A stretch of 64,000 nucleotides of DNA from Thermoplasmatales archaeon (GTDB lineage: Archaea > Thermoplasmatota > Thermoplasmata > Thermoplasmatales > GCA-001856825). The stretch covers positions 1-64,000 of the forward strand of contig JAJSLL010000007.1 of assembly GCA_026127935.1 (NCBI GenBank), read 5' to 3'. How positions within the stretch are numbered: the stretch's first letter is position 1; each line of letters begins with the position of its first letter. The notes beneath the pieces are model-generated. The model made no database searches and was not told the DNA's origin. It was given only the letters and a program-made list of their open reading frames with translations. A program made the translations under genes and the position numbers. Positions 3,874 to 9,308 of the stretch are shown piece by piece.

Positions 3874-5124
3874 TTGAGTGGGAAAGCGGTCCAAACGTCC
3901 TTGACCAATCTTAGGAAACTCATAGTGCACAAACAGCGCCTCACCGGTAAGTTTCCTACCGGTGGAACCAAAGAGGATATCCTGTCAGTTATGAGAGATG
4001 TAGCCTATATCCAATGGGACCCGATAAATGTCATTGGTCCAGCTCACATTATTTCTTTGTGGTCCAGAATAGGAAAGTTCGATCCCTCCGATTTGGAGAA
4101 GCTCTTGTGGGAAGATAGGCGAGTGTTTGAACACTATACTCCGACATTGATGTTGATGCTGACCGAAGAGTATCCTATTTTCTATTCCCTCATGAAGAGG
4201 TATCCAAAATCTCTCCGTGGATCATGGGGTTCCCAATCCGAACATGCACAGAAGTTCCTTTCGGAAAATCGTGATCTACAGAAGAGGATTCTGAAAGAAT
4301 TGAAGGATGGACCTTTGCGTCTTGATCAGTTGATGGACTACACTCCGTCGAATAGGAGTGCTGACGGTTGGAGCTCAGACAGCAAGATCTCAAACATGAT
4401 GTTCCATCTTCACATGCTGGGGAAAGTGATGATAGTTGGGCACCACAAGAATCAGAATGTATGGGGGCTTTCTGACGATTTCCTTCCAGAATGGGCCGAA
4501 AGGAAACTTCTGACAGAAAACGCAACAGATAGGGCCGCTGCTACGAGAGCTCTGAAGGCTATGGGTCCTGCAACAATGGGTGAAATAAATTATTACTTTG
4601 TCAGGGGACGCTACCACGACCTCAAGAGAGCTCTATCTGGACTGGAGAAAGAGAAGGAGATTACACAGCTCAGGATCGAAGACATAGGAAGAAAAGAGGA
4701 ACGATACATTCTGTCTAAAGATATCCCGCTTCTGGAATCGATGGATGACATTGATTTTAGGCCGAGGGTATCGCTACTTTCTCCATTCGACAACATGATT
4801 TCTGGAAGGAACAGGACGAGGCGCGTTTTTGGTTTCGAGTACATCCTCGAACAATTCGTGCCCAGGGAGAAGCGTAGGTATGGAACGTATGTACTTCCCA
4901 TATTGTGGGGAGAGAGGCTCATTGGCAGGATAGACCCTAGAATGGACAGAGAAGAAAAGATTCTCAAAATAAATGCTGTACACAAAGAACCTGGGGCGGA
5001 TATTCCTGCCGAAGCTATTGAAGAAATTGGAACCAGAATCGAAGAGCTGGGTCGTTTCCTGGGAGCGGACGGAGTGAAATATACCTCCAAAATTCCCCCT
5101 CAGTGGAGGAGTCGACTCAACTAG
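3874..5124 (+). CDS. YcaQ/AlkX-like winged-helix DNA glycosylase (HTH_42 family)
   Basis: The protein resembles bacterial YcaQ (AlkX/AlkZ family), winged-helix proteins that remove bulky alkylated bases or unhook interstrand crosslinks. The conserved N-terminal block is visible: SLTNLRKLIVHKQRL, then VAYIQWDPINVIGPAH, with the QxD (Q-W-D) catalytic-type motif as in AlkX, followed by HYTPTL. The frame is open upstream to a TTG at 3763, but family similarity starts only near residue 45 of that long form, and GGGAGGAA sits just before the TTG at 3874, so I favour 3874. The gene stands alone. Function is by family; the archaeal substrate is unknown. Confidence 0.78.
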   Translation: MSGKAVQTSLTNLRKLIVHKQRLTGKFPTGGTKEDILSVMRDVAYIQWDPINVIGPAHIISLWSRIGKFDPSDLEKLLWEDRRVFEHYTPTLMLMLTEEYPIFYSLMKRYPKSLRGSWGSQSEHAQKFLSENRDLQKRILKELKDGPLRLDQLMDYTPSNRSADGWSSDSKISNMMFHLHMLGKVMIVGHHKNQNVWGLSDDFLPEWAERKLLTENATDRAAATRALKAMGPATMGEINYYFVRGRYHDLKRALSGLEKEKEITQLRIEDIGRKEERYILSKDIPLLESMDDIDFRPRVSLLSPFDNMISGRNRTRRVFGFEYILEQFVPREKRRYGTYVLPILWGERLIGRIDPRMDREEKILKINAVHKEPGADIPAEAIEEIGTRIEELGRFLGADGVKYTSKIPPQWRSRLN

Positions 5125-5176: not shown

Positions 5177-6106
5177 CTAGGCTTTGCTCTCTTCCATCAC
5201 CCTAGAGTTGTGTGCATCTATGAGGAGAAAGATGGATTCGTCCTTGTGTTCAAACTGAAGCGACCACACTGGAATGTGGACGAGGTACATGTCGGCAATG
5301 TCCACGTTCACGTTAGCTGAAAGGAAACCATGAACGTTTTTCTGAAGCCTCCTGATCTCCCACTGCTGTATTCTGAGCTTTCCCTCCATTCTTGCTTTTT
5401 CTTCCCCCATCGTTCCGTTCATGAGCTTTATCGACCCGTTCACGTCGTCTTGTCCTATCGGTCTCTTGTCAGAGAGATTGAAAACATAATCAGGTGGTTG
5501 GTACTGGTTCATGTTCTCTATTGCAATTACTGGATAATTCACCTCGTTTACATCGTTTCCTGATTCCACAATAGTCTGGACATTAATCGTTGGGCCACCA
5601 AACCCACCTCTTCCGCCCATTCCAACTCCCACAAATCCTCCGGGACTGACCTGCTCCTTCTTGAACTGATACTGTGCGGAGTATCCTGCGTCCATTATCC
5701 AGTAAGGCAGGTAATTAAGATCCGTCTTCTTGAGTGTGCTCTTCTCGAACAGATGCCTGTGGAATATGCTATTGTCTAGAAATGCCTTGGCCACTAATTC
5801 AGCCTGGTCCTTCATCTGGACTTTGATATCCAGAATGTAGTGTTTTTCGACTTTTGTCCAACCCAGTGACCCTAAAGAAATTGAAGTGCCGCAATATGTA
5901 CAGACAACCATTGCCTCTCCGGGTGCAGGGTTGAGCGGCGCTCCGCAATTAGGACATTTCATGTCCTTCAGGACTGCCTGCTGGTCTTGGGAACTATTCC
6001 CTCCCTGTTTTGCAGTTTGAGACTGACTCCCCTGCTGAGGCGCTCCACATTTAGGGCAAAAGTCCGAATCATCTGGAATAGATGCGCCGCATTTCTTGCA
6101 GTACAT
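5177..6106 (-). CDS. Double zinc-ribbon protein, third gene of the SPFH operon
   Basis: This 309-residue protein has two N-terminal zinc ribbons: CKKC/CPKC (C3, C6, C17, C20) and CPNC/CTYC (C51, C54, C69, C72), joined by a Gln/Ser-rich linker. The rest (about 75-309) is a soluble-looking domain with a glycine-rich stretch GVGMGGRGGFGG near 160 and a C-terminal beta-rich part (YLVHIPVWSLQFEH). No membrane segment is clear. It lies one base after the SPFH gene, so the two are surely co-transcribed. It may correspond loosely to the zinc-ribbon YdjG member of the Bacillus YdjFGHI envelope-stress set, but that comparison is from memory. The molecular role is unknown. Confidence 0.7.
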   Translation of the reverse strand: MYCKKCGASIPDDSDFCPKCGAPQQGSQSQTAKQGGNSSQDQQAVLKDMKCPNCGAPLNPAPGEAMVVCTYCGTSISLGSLGWTKVEKHYILDIKVQMKDQAELVAKAFLDNSIFHRHLFEKSTLKKTDLNYLPYWIMDAGYSAQYQFKKEQVSPGGFVGVGMGGRGGFGGPTINVQTIVESGNDVNEVNYPVIAIENMNQYQPPDYVFNLSDKRPIGQDDVNGSIKLMNGTMGEEKARMEGKLRIQQWEIRRLQKNVHGFLSANVNVDIADMYLVHIPVWSLQFEHKDESIFLLIDAHNSRVMEESKA

Positions 6107-6107
6107 T

Positions 6108-7265
6108 TCAGTTCACCTTCTCGCCACAATTCGGGCAGAACTTTGCTCCTGGCTGTACTTCCGTCCCACACTTCGGACATTTGGTCGTGATGGATTTCCC
6201 ACACTCTGGACAGAACTTTGACGTCTTTGGTATGTTCTTGCCACAGTATGGACATTTCATCTGCTCTTCAGATGAAAAATCATATCCACAAGATGGGCAG
6301 AACTTTACGTTCTCGTCCACATCAGTTTGACACTTGGGGCACTTCTTCACTCTCTTTTCTGCGGGAGGCTGCTGTTGGTTCATCCCCTGCGTTATGTTTG
6401 ATGCCATTGGATATGCCATTCCTGCTCCAGCTCCCAACCCCATTCCGAGCCCTATTCCTGCTCCTGCAGTTCCACCAGGATTCTTCGCTGCATCCACCAT
6501 GGCCTGACCAGCCTGGAACTGCAGATAGTTCGCACCGACTGCCTTCATGCTCGAACGGGTATCTATTGCCTTCTGGACCTCGTCCGGAAGCGATATCGTC
6601 AATCCGGAAATCTTGTTTAACTCAATTCCGTATTGATCGAAAGCAGCCTTTGCACCAGCCAACACAGCTTCCTCTGTGTTCATCAAGTTGGATGGGAGAT
6701 CGAGTACCGAGATTCCCTGGTCTTTCATCTTTCCAAGCACGTTGTAAATAAGCATGACAACCTGGTCCCTTATCCTGTCTTCCACCTGTGCAGTAGTCTC
6801 GACATTGAAAGTACCCACAAACTGATTTATGAATATTGAAGGATCTGAAATCCGGTACCTCATATCACCAAAGAGCCTGAGCATGACGATATCGAAGTCC
6901 TTGTCCCTGAATGCGTAAGGTTCCTTGGATCCAAATTTTCCGTCGATGATCCTTCTCTGCAGGTAATACACATAGGCCTGCTGCTGGATACCGGTCAATA
7001 GCTTTACGAGACTCCCGACGATTGGCGCGTTGAGATCAGTCAGTGCATATCTTCCAGGCTTGTCTATGTAGAATATTGCCTTTCCATCCCTGAAAAAAAC
7101 AGCCGTTTCGTCTTCCCTGACGACTGCATTGTCGTTCAACTTGATCAGTCTGGGAACCTTCCACATTATGTTTCCTTCTTTGAACTGATCCTCCCATTCA
7201 AAGGTAGTCGAACCAAATGCGCTTCCACCACTTGGTGGTACTCCACCCTTCTTTCCAAACGGCAT
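6108..7265 (-). CDS. SPFH-domain protein with three C-terminal zinc ribbons (YdjI-like)
   Basis: Residues about 25-235 look like an SPFH/band-7 domain of the YdjI type (FEWEDQFKEGNIMWKVP start, DMRYRISDPSIFINQFVG, VEDRIRDQVVMLIYNVLG, ISLPDEVQKAID). A Gly/Ala/Met-rich segment (about 265-290) follows and could insert into or lie on a membrane. Three consecutive zinc ribbons end the protein, each CPxC...CPxCG (six CxxC pairs). SPFH proteins scaffold membrane microdomains; bacterial YdjI acts with PspA-like proteins in envelope stress. The gene directly abuts the preceding 207-residue gene and the following zinc-ribbon gene, forming a three-gene operon. Its partner and trigger are unknown. Confidence 0.8.
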   Translation of the reverse strand: MPFGKKGGVPPSGGSAFGSTTFEWEDQFKEGNIMWKVPRLIKLNDNAVVREDETAVFFRDGKAIFYIDKPGRYALTDLNAPIVGSLVKLLTGIQQQAYVYYLQRRIIDGKFGSKEPYAFRDKDFDIVMLRLFGDMRYRISDPSIFINQFVGTFNVETTAQVEDRIRDQVVMLIYNVLGKMKDQGISVLDLPSNLMNTEEAVLAGAKAAFDQYGIELNKISGLTISLPDEVQKAIDTRSSMKAVGANYLQFQAGQAMVDAAKNPGGTAGAGIGLGMGLGAGAGMAYPMASNITQGMNQQQPPAEKRVKKCPKCQTDVDENVKFCPSCGYDFSSEEQMKCPYCGKNIPKTSKFCPECGKSITTKCPKCGTEVQPGAKFCPNCGEKVN

Positions 7266-7889
7266 TTAGACCCCCCCATAGAGAAGCGTTTCCCTACTGC
7301 TGTTCAGATCTGAAATTGCCGAAATGATGTTGTTGATTCCTGCAATCCCGTCTTGATTGACATTTCCAGATGAGCAATTCTGTACGAACGAGTTCACTCC
7401 CTTTTGAAGATTCTGTATCTGGTCGAATATCTGCATATCCAGATCATACAGTGCAGAAATCTTCTTTGCATCCACCTTGATTGGTGCGGATATTCCAGAA
7501 TACCCTGCCCCATGGTGCTTGACAGCCTCTGCGACTGTCTGTATCCTGGATCTGATGACCCCAATCGACTCAAGTACCTTAAACTGGCCGCTGCTAACGA
7601 GTGAGCCTTCGCCAGTTTTCAGATTCGATATAACGTCCAGCATTTTCTTGTACAATTCGTCCTTCAAAATAATATCAGCATCACGCAAGTCTTCGTTTAT
7701 CCTATATCCGTGGTAGCCAGGGAATATGAGCTGAATCTTTTTGATTACTCCTCTGTCCTCTACGACCTGATCCCTTAAGTCGGTCATGGAGCATTGATAA
7801 AAGACGAAGTCAAAATACTTTCCACTATTGTCTTTTCCTAACCCCCGTGTTCTGATGAAACTCGGAAATCCTGAATTCTGATAATTCAC
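7266..7889 (-). CDS. Uncharacterised helical protein, first gene of the SPFH operon
   Basis: I do not recognise a named domain. The central part (IQLIFPGYHGYRINEDLRD, then long helices with RSRIQTVAEAV, GYSG and LYDLDMQIFDQIQNL) recalls, from memory, a family of uncharacterised proteins that sit beside YdjI-type SPFH genes in other prokaryotes. The listed start is GTG; a TATA-like AATATTTATA lies just upstream, so a downstream start such as the ATG at 7787 is possible. It ends one base before the SPFH start. Most likely a cytosolic subunit or adaptor of the same module; this is inference from context. Confidence 0.6.
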   Translation of the reverse strand: MNYQNSGFPSFIRTRGLGKDNSGKYFDFVFYQCSMTDLRDQVVEDRGVIKKIQLIFPGYHGYRINEDLRDADIILKDELYKKMLDVISNLKTGEGSLVSSGQFKVLESIGVIRSRIQTVAEAVKHHGAGYSGISAPIKVDAKKISALYDLDMQIFDQIQNLQKGVNSFVQNCSSGNVNQDGIAGINNIISAISDLNSSRETLLYGGV

Positions 7890-7973: not shown

Positions 7974-9308
7974 ATGAGAAATGAGGGGGAAACTGGTGGT
8001 AAGAAATTTTCCGAACTTGCCATTAAGTACTCCAAGGAATATCAAGGGAAGATTCAGACCATGCTCAAGGTACCGGTCAGAAGTCTGGAGGACTTCTCGG
8101 TGTGGTACACTCCTGGAGTTGCAGCAGTTTCACTTGAGATTGCTAAGGACAAGGAATTATCATTTGACATGACATGGCGATGGAACACCGTTGCGATTGT
8201 CACAGATGGAACCAGGGTCCTCGGACTTGGAAACATTGGACCGGAAGCTTCATTGCCCGTGATGGAGGGTAAGGGACTTATCTTTAAGTACCTGGGTGGG
8301 GTCGATGCAATACCGATTCCTATAAACGTTCATGAAAAGGAACAAATTGCCAGCATCGTAAAGGCAATTGAGCCTGCCTTTGGCGGGATAAACCTAGAGG
8401 ACATAGAATCACCGAAGTGTTTCTACCTTCTAGAAACGCTTAGAAAAGAGATGAACATACCCGTCTGGCATGATGACCAGCTTGGAACTGCTGGAGCGAC
8501 ACTTGCAGGGCTGCTCAACGCTCTCAAGCTGACGGGGAGAAACGAGAGAGACACCAATATAGTCGTCGTGGGATCTGGCGCCGCAAACATCGCTACGATC
8601 AAGTTATTTGACTCAGCGGGATTCGATATTGGAAACATCATTGCGGTCGATTCGCACGGGGTTCTGCACCCAGAGAGGGAGGATATGGATGTTTTAATGA
8701 AAGATAATCCTTGGAAATACGACCTCGGAATCAGGACAAACAGAAAGAGGATCACGGGAGACATCCAGAACGCACTTGAAGGTGCGGATGTTTTGATAGC
8801 GGCATCGAAACCAGGACCTGGTACCATAAAGGGCGAGTGGATCAAGAAGATGGAAAAGAGGGCAATCGTGTTTGCACTTGCAAACCCAGTGCCTGAAATA
8901 TGGCCTAGCGAGGCGAAGGAGAATGGCGCGGAGATCGTTGGAACCGGAAGGTCGGATTTTCCAAACCAAGTCAACAATAGTCTGGTGTTTCCTGGAGTTT
9001 TCAGGGGAGCGCTGGATGCTAGGGTCAGGAAGATAAGTGAACCTATGATCGTCAGGGCGTCAAGAGAGCTCGCTCTGTTTGCAGAGGAGAAAGGACTCAC
9101 GGAAGACTACATCCTTCCAACAATGCAAGAGTGGGAAGTGTTTCCAAGGATCGCGTCTGCAATAGCAGAGGAAGGCGTCAAGGAGAATCTGGCGAGAGTA
9201 AAAATGAGCAAGAAGGAATACTACGAACGGGCCAAGAAAATTATCTCCAGCAACAGGGAAATGATAGAAAAAATGATGGATGAGAATCTTATAAAGAAGG
9301 TGAAATGA
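7974..9308 (+). CDS. Malic enzyme (oxaloacetate-decarboxylating malate dehydrogenase)
   Basis: This 444-residue protein is a short prokaryotic malic enzyme. Visible marks are VWYTPGVAAVS (N-terminal catalytic Tyr region), TDGTRVLGLGNIGPEASLPVMEGKG, WHDDQLGTAGATLAG (metal-binding Asp pair), the NAD(P)-binding VVVGSGAANIA and FALANPVPEIWP. It converts malate to pyruvate and CO2 with reduction of NAD(P), linking the TCA cycle to pyruvate. A TATA-like GGTTAATATC at 7943-7952 places transcription start at about the ATG, so the mRNA is probably leaderless. It overlaps the following acetyltransferase by ATGA. Cofactor preference cannot be read with certainty. Confidence 0.93.
   Translation: MRNEGETGGKKFSELAIKYSKEYQGKIQTMLKVPVRSLEDFSVWYTPGVAAVSLEIAKDKELSFDMTWRWNTVAIVTDGTRVLGLGNIGPEASLPVMEGKGLIFKYLGGVDAIPIPINVHEKEQIASIVKAIEPAFGGINLEDIESPKCFYLLETLRKEMNIPVWHDDQLGTAGATLAGLLNALKLTGRNERDTNIVVVGSGAANIATIKLFDSAGFDIGNIIAVDSHGVLHPEREDMDVLMKDNPWKYDLGIRTNRKRITGDIQNALEGADVLIAASKPGPGTIKGEWIKKMEKRAIVFALANPVPEIWPSEAKENGAEIVGTGRSDFPNQVNNSLVFPGVFRGALDARVRKISEPMIVRASRELALFAEEKGLTEDYILPTMQEWEVFPRIASAIAEEGVKENLARVKMSKKEYYERAKKIISSNREMIEKMMDENLIKKVK

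Follow-up and report, generated by a model that had tools for sequence, protein, structure and literature searches.

Does a compact set of three genes in a Thermoplasmatales archaeon represent an archaeal counterpart of the bacterial YdjFGHI system? The set was found in the window, that is, the whole stretch of DNA analysed (64,000 nucleotides, contig JAJSLL010000007.1). The initial annotation described it as a candidate undescribed membrane-stress system, composed of a gene of unknown function, an SPFH protein gene, and a zinc-ribbon protein gene. In our study, we examined the operon, its three products, and the occurrence of its relatives in other genomes.

Operon layout and the products of g2 and g3

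The genes g1, g2, and g3 (Table 1) were contained in minus-strand open reading frames at 7266-7889, 6108-7265, and 5177-6106, respectively, with intergenic gaps of 0 and 1 base, and the near fusion of the three genes reported earlier was confirmed on this strand. They formed an isolated three-gene operon because the divergent neighbour, a malic enzyme by appearance, was located at 7974, and the convergent neighbour ended at 5124. The genes were not chance open reading frames, since all three were conserved, with the gene order kept, across the genus and the family and also outside the family; sequence conservation thus indicates that the three-gene set is real. The start of g1 is probably the ATG at 7787 and not the GTG at 7889, because the relatives align only from approximately residue 34–35 of the first open reading frame and the GTG is not conserved. 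The 34 codons preceding the ATG likewise showed no conservation among the relatives; the position of the GTG was occupied by an Asn codon in a relative of 97% identity, and other relatives had stops or unrelated sequence.

Table 1. Features of the g1-g2-g3 operon in the window.
Feature	Position	Strand	Description	Basis
g1	7266..7787	-	173-aa helical protein, LIMLP_15305-like, uncharacterised family; first gene of the operon	
In-frame extension upstream of g1, from GTG 7889	7788..7889	-	No conservation among relatives; probably untranslated	
g2	6108..7265	-	YdjI-type SPFH protein; glycine-rich linker, three zinc ribbons at the C-terminus	PF13421, zinc-ribbon matches, and alignment
SPFH (Band_7_1) domain of g2	6543..7148	-	Residues 40-241	
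Zinc ribbons of g2 (n=3, six CxxC)	6111..6353	-	CxxC at residues 309, 323, 338, 352, 363, and 377	
g3	5177..6106	-	Double zinc-ribbon protein with alpha/beta C-terminal domain, without transmembrane helix	

The g2 protein matched Band_7_1 (PF13421) with 117.4 bits against a curated cut-off of 24 (8.7e-34), and it aligned with bacterial SPFH proteins with an hhalign E of 4e-49. The earlier description of g2 as an SPFH protein with three zinc ribbons was therefore confirmed by the PF13421 match and the three ribbons at its C-terminus. The g3 protein contained two zinc ribbons at its start, as annotated, with CxxC pairs at residues 3, 17, 51, and 69; together with the six pairs of g2, these make up the ten CxxC pairs counted before. 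Such zinc ribbons generally have a structural role or bind proteins. The g3 protein was homologous to the zinc-ribbon proteins encoded next to SPFH genes in bacteria (hhalign E 1e-23). Its predicted structure (pLDDT 80.7) contained a very long beta-hairpin at residues 124-194, the glycine-rich tip of which was of low confidence, and the relatives of g3 contained a longer Gly/Met-rich insertion in this hairpin region. The fold search with g3 returned mainly beta-hairpin-rich toxins, which were discarded as meaningless (TM-score <=0.13, probability <0.1). No transmembrane segment was found in any of the three proteins (0/3).

The g1 protein family

The alignment of g1 (50 sequences) contained fifteen invariant positions, whereas the distant members were only about 30% identical to the protein of the window. 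A conserved PG[YF]xxYRxxxDLRxAD motif was present near the N-terminus, followed by the presence of an HxxxGYxG motif in the middle of the protein; Y114, D117, and R165 were invariant outside both motifs. The invariant residues also included R29, D33, R35, D38, H91, and Y96. The predicted structure consisted mostly of four helices (pLDDT 76, pTM 0.73), and the motif regions were its least certain portions. The structure models were built on 20 and 23 sequences.

In the Pfam search, no family was found for g1 of the window and only scattered weak matches were found for the 50 members of the alignment, and assignment to a Pfam family was rejected. The fold search found no solved structure at E <= 0.001 and returned only generic helical bundles, and a known fold was rejected likewise. 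A defence-gene search with g1 gave no match, so that this identity was also discarded, and g1 was not found in the plasmids and viral contigs in which it was looked for. The sole named relative was the NCBIfam family NF047596 (LIMLP_15305, Leptospira; E 1.5e-8), which was matched by all 50 members of the alignment. The homology of NF047596 with g1 extended over nearly the whole length, whereas g1 of the window scored 34.7 bits, far below the curated family cut-off of 210 bits; g1 is homologous yet outside the equivalog. The one paper in which LIMLP_15305 is named assigns it no function. By the Pfam, fold, and NCBIfam checks, g1 lay outside every characterised family, the outcome on which the initial annotation had staked its proposal beforehand.

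A distant, solitary paralogue of g1 was present in the same genome (locus L129, contig C31, 4831-5439) with no adjoining SPFH gene; across the genus, it was kept beside ribosomal protein L15e-like and alcohol-dehydrogenase-like genes.

Neighbourhood of g1 across archaea

When the GTDB genome collection was scanned, 139 relatives of g1 were obtained, and the loci of the best-scoring 80 of the 139, which share ancestry, were fetched. By the names in the records, these best 80 were mostly from Thermoplasmata and Methanomassiliicoccales, and the rest were from Methanoperedens/ANME-2, Methanoculleus, Methanocorpusculum, and Nitrososphaerales. In our study, we found that a YdjI-type (g2-type) SPFH gene was present directly after g1, on the same strand, in 79 of the 80 loci (best 80 of 139); in the single exception, the contig ended 108 bases past the g1 match. 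The synteny on which the earlier proposal depended thus extended well past one genome. In a survey of 194 genomes of the phylum, g1 was found in 53 and a strong g2 match in 34, all 34 of them within those 53. The g2 matches were directly downstream of g1 in 37 of 45 cases, and five genomes contained a weaker g2 match without g1. The hypergeometric value of this co-occurrence was ~1e-24, which ignores shared ancestry and is not to be taken literally. The gene g1 was found to be a near-obligate genetic partner of the YdjI-type SPFH gene.

The link between g1 and the SPFH gene was retained in diverged pairs (L131, L133, and L136/L137). In L131, g1, a zinc-ribbon gene, and the SPFH gene were present in an altered order, and in L133 the SPFH gene was directly preceded by g1. 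The L136 (1355-2731) and L137 (3603-4954) pairs were second, diverged pairs in two related genomes, and the SPFH protein of the L137 pair was devoid of zinc ribbons.

Zinc-ribbon genes of the g3 kind were present in most of the fetched loci (best 80 of 139). The Methanomassiliicoccales and Methanoperedens-type genomes contained three zinc-ribbon genes after g2, and the first two of these three proteins had strongly hydrophobic C-terminal segments. Zinc-ribbon proteins with transmembrane helices were thus a feature of the longer archaeal operons. In two Methanomassiliicoccales operons (L112, 10062-11414; L084, 10053-11347), the zinc-ribbon genes were followed by LemA and TPM genes. Another archaeal locus (L077, 6683-7171) contained a gene of 163 aa, arrestin-like by eye, after the g3-type gene.

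Possible function and comparison with known systems

The homologies, the operon layout, and the near-invariant adjacency of g1 and g2 were observed directly, as was the lack of PspA, TPM, and transmembrane helices. From these, g1-g2-g3 may be read as encoding an SPFH scaffold that is cytoplasmic and docks to the membrane, with g1 as a subunit or adaptor and g3 as an adaptor, and we give this reading about an even chance. The SPFH domains of g2 would form an oligomer, from which the flexible glycine-rich linker and the structural zinc-ribbon arrays beyond it would extend as docking arms. The g3 protein would be a zinc-ribbon adaptor of the kind accompanying bacterial SPFH proteins, and g1, which heads the operon in the position held by PspA in Bacillus, would be a dedicated helical subunit or adaptor in physical contact with the SPFH protein. 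The assembly would dock to the membrane and take part in membrane or protein quality control. The scaffold reading was drawn from the SPFH homology of g2, the g1-g2 adjacency, and the diverged pairs that keep the link, and also from the g3-type genes in most loci, the g3 homologues after bacterial SPFH genes, and the Bacillus protein YdjI, a soluble SPFH protein linking PspA to the membrane (PMC8581546). Counted against it were the lack of a membrane segment in g1, g2, and g3, the solitary g1 paralogue, the five weaker-g2 genomes without g1, and the uncertainty of the g1 model in its motif regions. The membrane-stress role proposed for the module is a guess, and so are the proposed action on ether lipids and the proposed metal or redox role. 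A wider claim, which we consider somewhat doubtful, is that g1 represents an ancient new family of obligate SPFH partners in archaea and Leptospira, which would control the assembly or docking of YdjI-type proteins and replace PspA where it is absent. A gene almost never parted from the SPFH gene would be a direct, testable lead to a missing subunit, and it occurs in archaea without PspA.

It is unlikely that the proteins form a soluble SPFH chaperone or protein-quality-control complex that is never docked to the membrane, in which g1 and g3 would select or present clients. The lack of membrane segments in all three proteins agrees with such a complex, the five zinc ribbons fit protein docking, and the g1 profile was weakly similar to BAG co-chaperones (E 0.04-0.6). 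However, this similarity was at noise level, ranked behind designed helical proteins, and hydrophobic C-terminal segments were present on the zinc-ribbon proteins of related archaeal operons and on the bacterial partners. A true archaeal YdjFGHI/Psp system, in which g1 would be PspA/ESCRT-III-like but highly diverged and the stressed membrane would be repaired by the module, appears quite improbable, although g1 is helical and stands at the operon head like PspA in Bacillus, PspA itself was missing from the order, and TPM, the domain of YdjH (PMC11237479), was encoded in the two related operons L112 and L084. The profile comparison of g1 with PspA gave a probability of only 0.4%, with a shallow PspA alignment, and the identity of g1 with PspA was rejected; the fold search yielded only generic helical bundles, PspA and g1 occurred together in four Methanoperedens-type genomes, and neither TPM nor transmembrane parts were present here. 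Membership of an archaeal ESCRT-linked membrane-remodelling system is very improbable. In its favour, the Meth_adaptin ESCRT loci of methanogens are reported to encode an SPFH protein with a coiled coil and a zinc ribbon (PMC10936438), which resembles g2 in being an archaeal SPFH protein with a zinc ribbon. Against it, their neighbourhood differs: neither in the window nor in the other neighbourhoods examined was an ESCRT gene recognised next to the module. A genome-wide Snf7/ESCRT-III search, insensitive in that its control was itself weakly detected, was without a match.

Among known systems, plasmids of Paracoccus, Vibrio, and Comamonas contained an SPFH gene followed by a TFIIB-type zinc-ribbon gene, adjacent homologues of g2 and g3 as in the archaeal operon. 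These pairs differed in the absence of g1; their SPFH proteins were without C-terminal zinc ribbons, whereas g2 has three, and their zinc-ribbon proteins ended in a hydrophobic segment, which g3 lacks. In Paracoccus (L147, 2275-6993), the pair was preceded by a 'toxic anion resistance' gene and by one encoding DUF2927. Since bacterial plasmids carry homologous pairs, g2-g3 is of a known cross-domain kind and g1 is the new element. The term 'undescribed' consequently held for g1 only, the SPFH gene beside a zinc-ribbon gene being known in bacteria and the SPFH protein with a zinc ribbon in methanogen ESCRT loci (PMC10936438).

In Bacillus, YdjI ties PspA to the membrane, and YdjG and YdjH are required (PMC8581546). 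Like g2, YdjI of the B. subtilis pspA-ydjGHI operon is an SPFH protein that lacks a transmembrane helix and carries a zinc ribbon at its C-terminus, and a zinc-ribbon gene lies beside the SPFH gene in both (PMC8581546, PMC11237479), g3 and YdjG being compared by description. The operon of the window differed in containing the unrelated helical g1 instead of PspA, TPM, or a membrane-anchored zinc-ribbon protein, and the L112 and L084 operons were nearer to the Bacillus operon. PspA was over the cut-off in 0 of 61 genomes of the sampled order (controls, 9 of 14), and none of the 31 genomes searched contained the TPM (YdjH) domain, as against 8 of the 14 controls. Of the counterpart to YdjFGHI suggested by the initial annotation, the YdjI-type SPFH protein with zinc ribbons and its zinc-ribbon partner were retained, whereas PspA, TPM, and a transmembrane segment were not found. 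On these results, the module falls outside the Psp system, but it may work like the SPFH half of it. The set is best read as an archaeal variant of the SPFH/zinc-ribbon scaffold of bacteria that is independent of PspA and includes a helical, previously undescribed partner.
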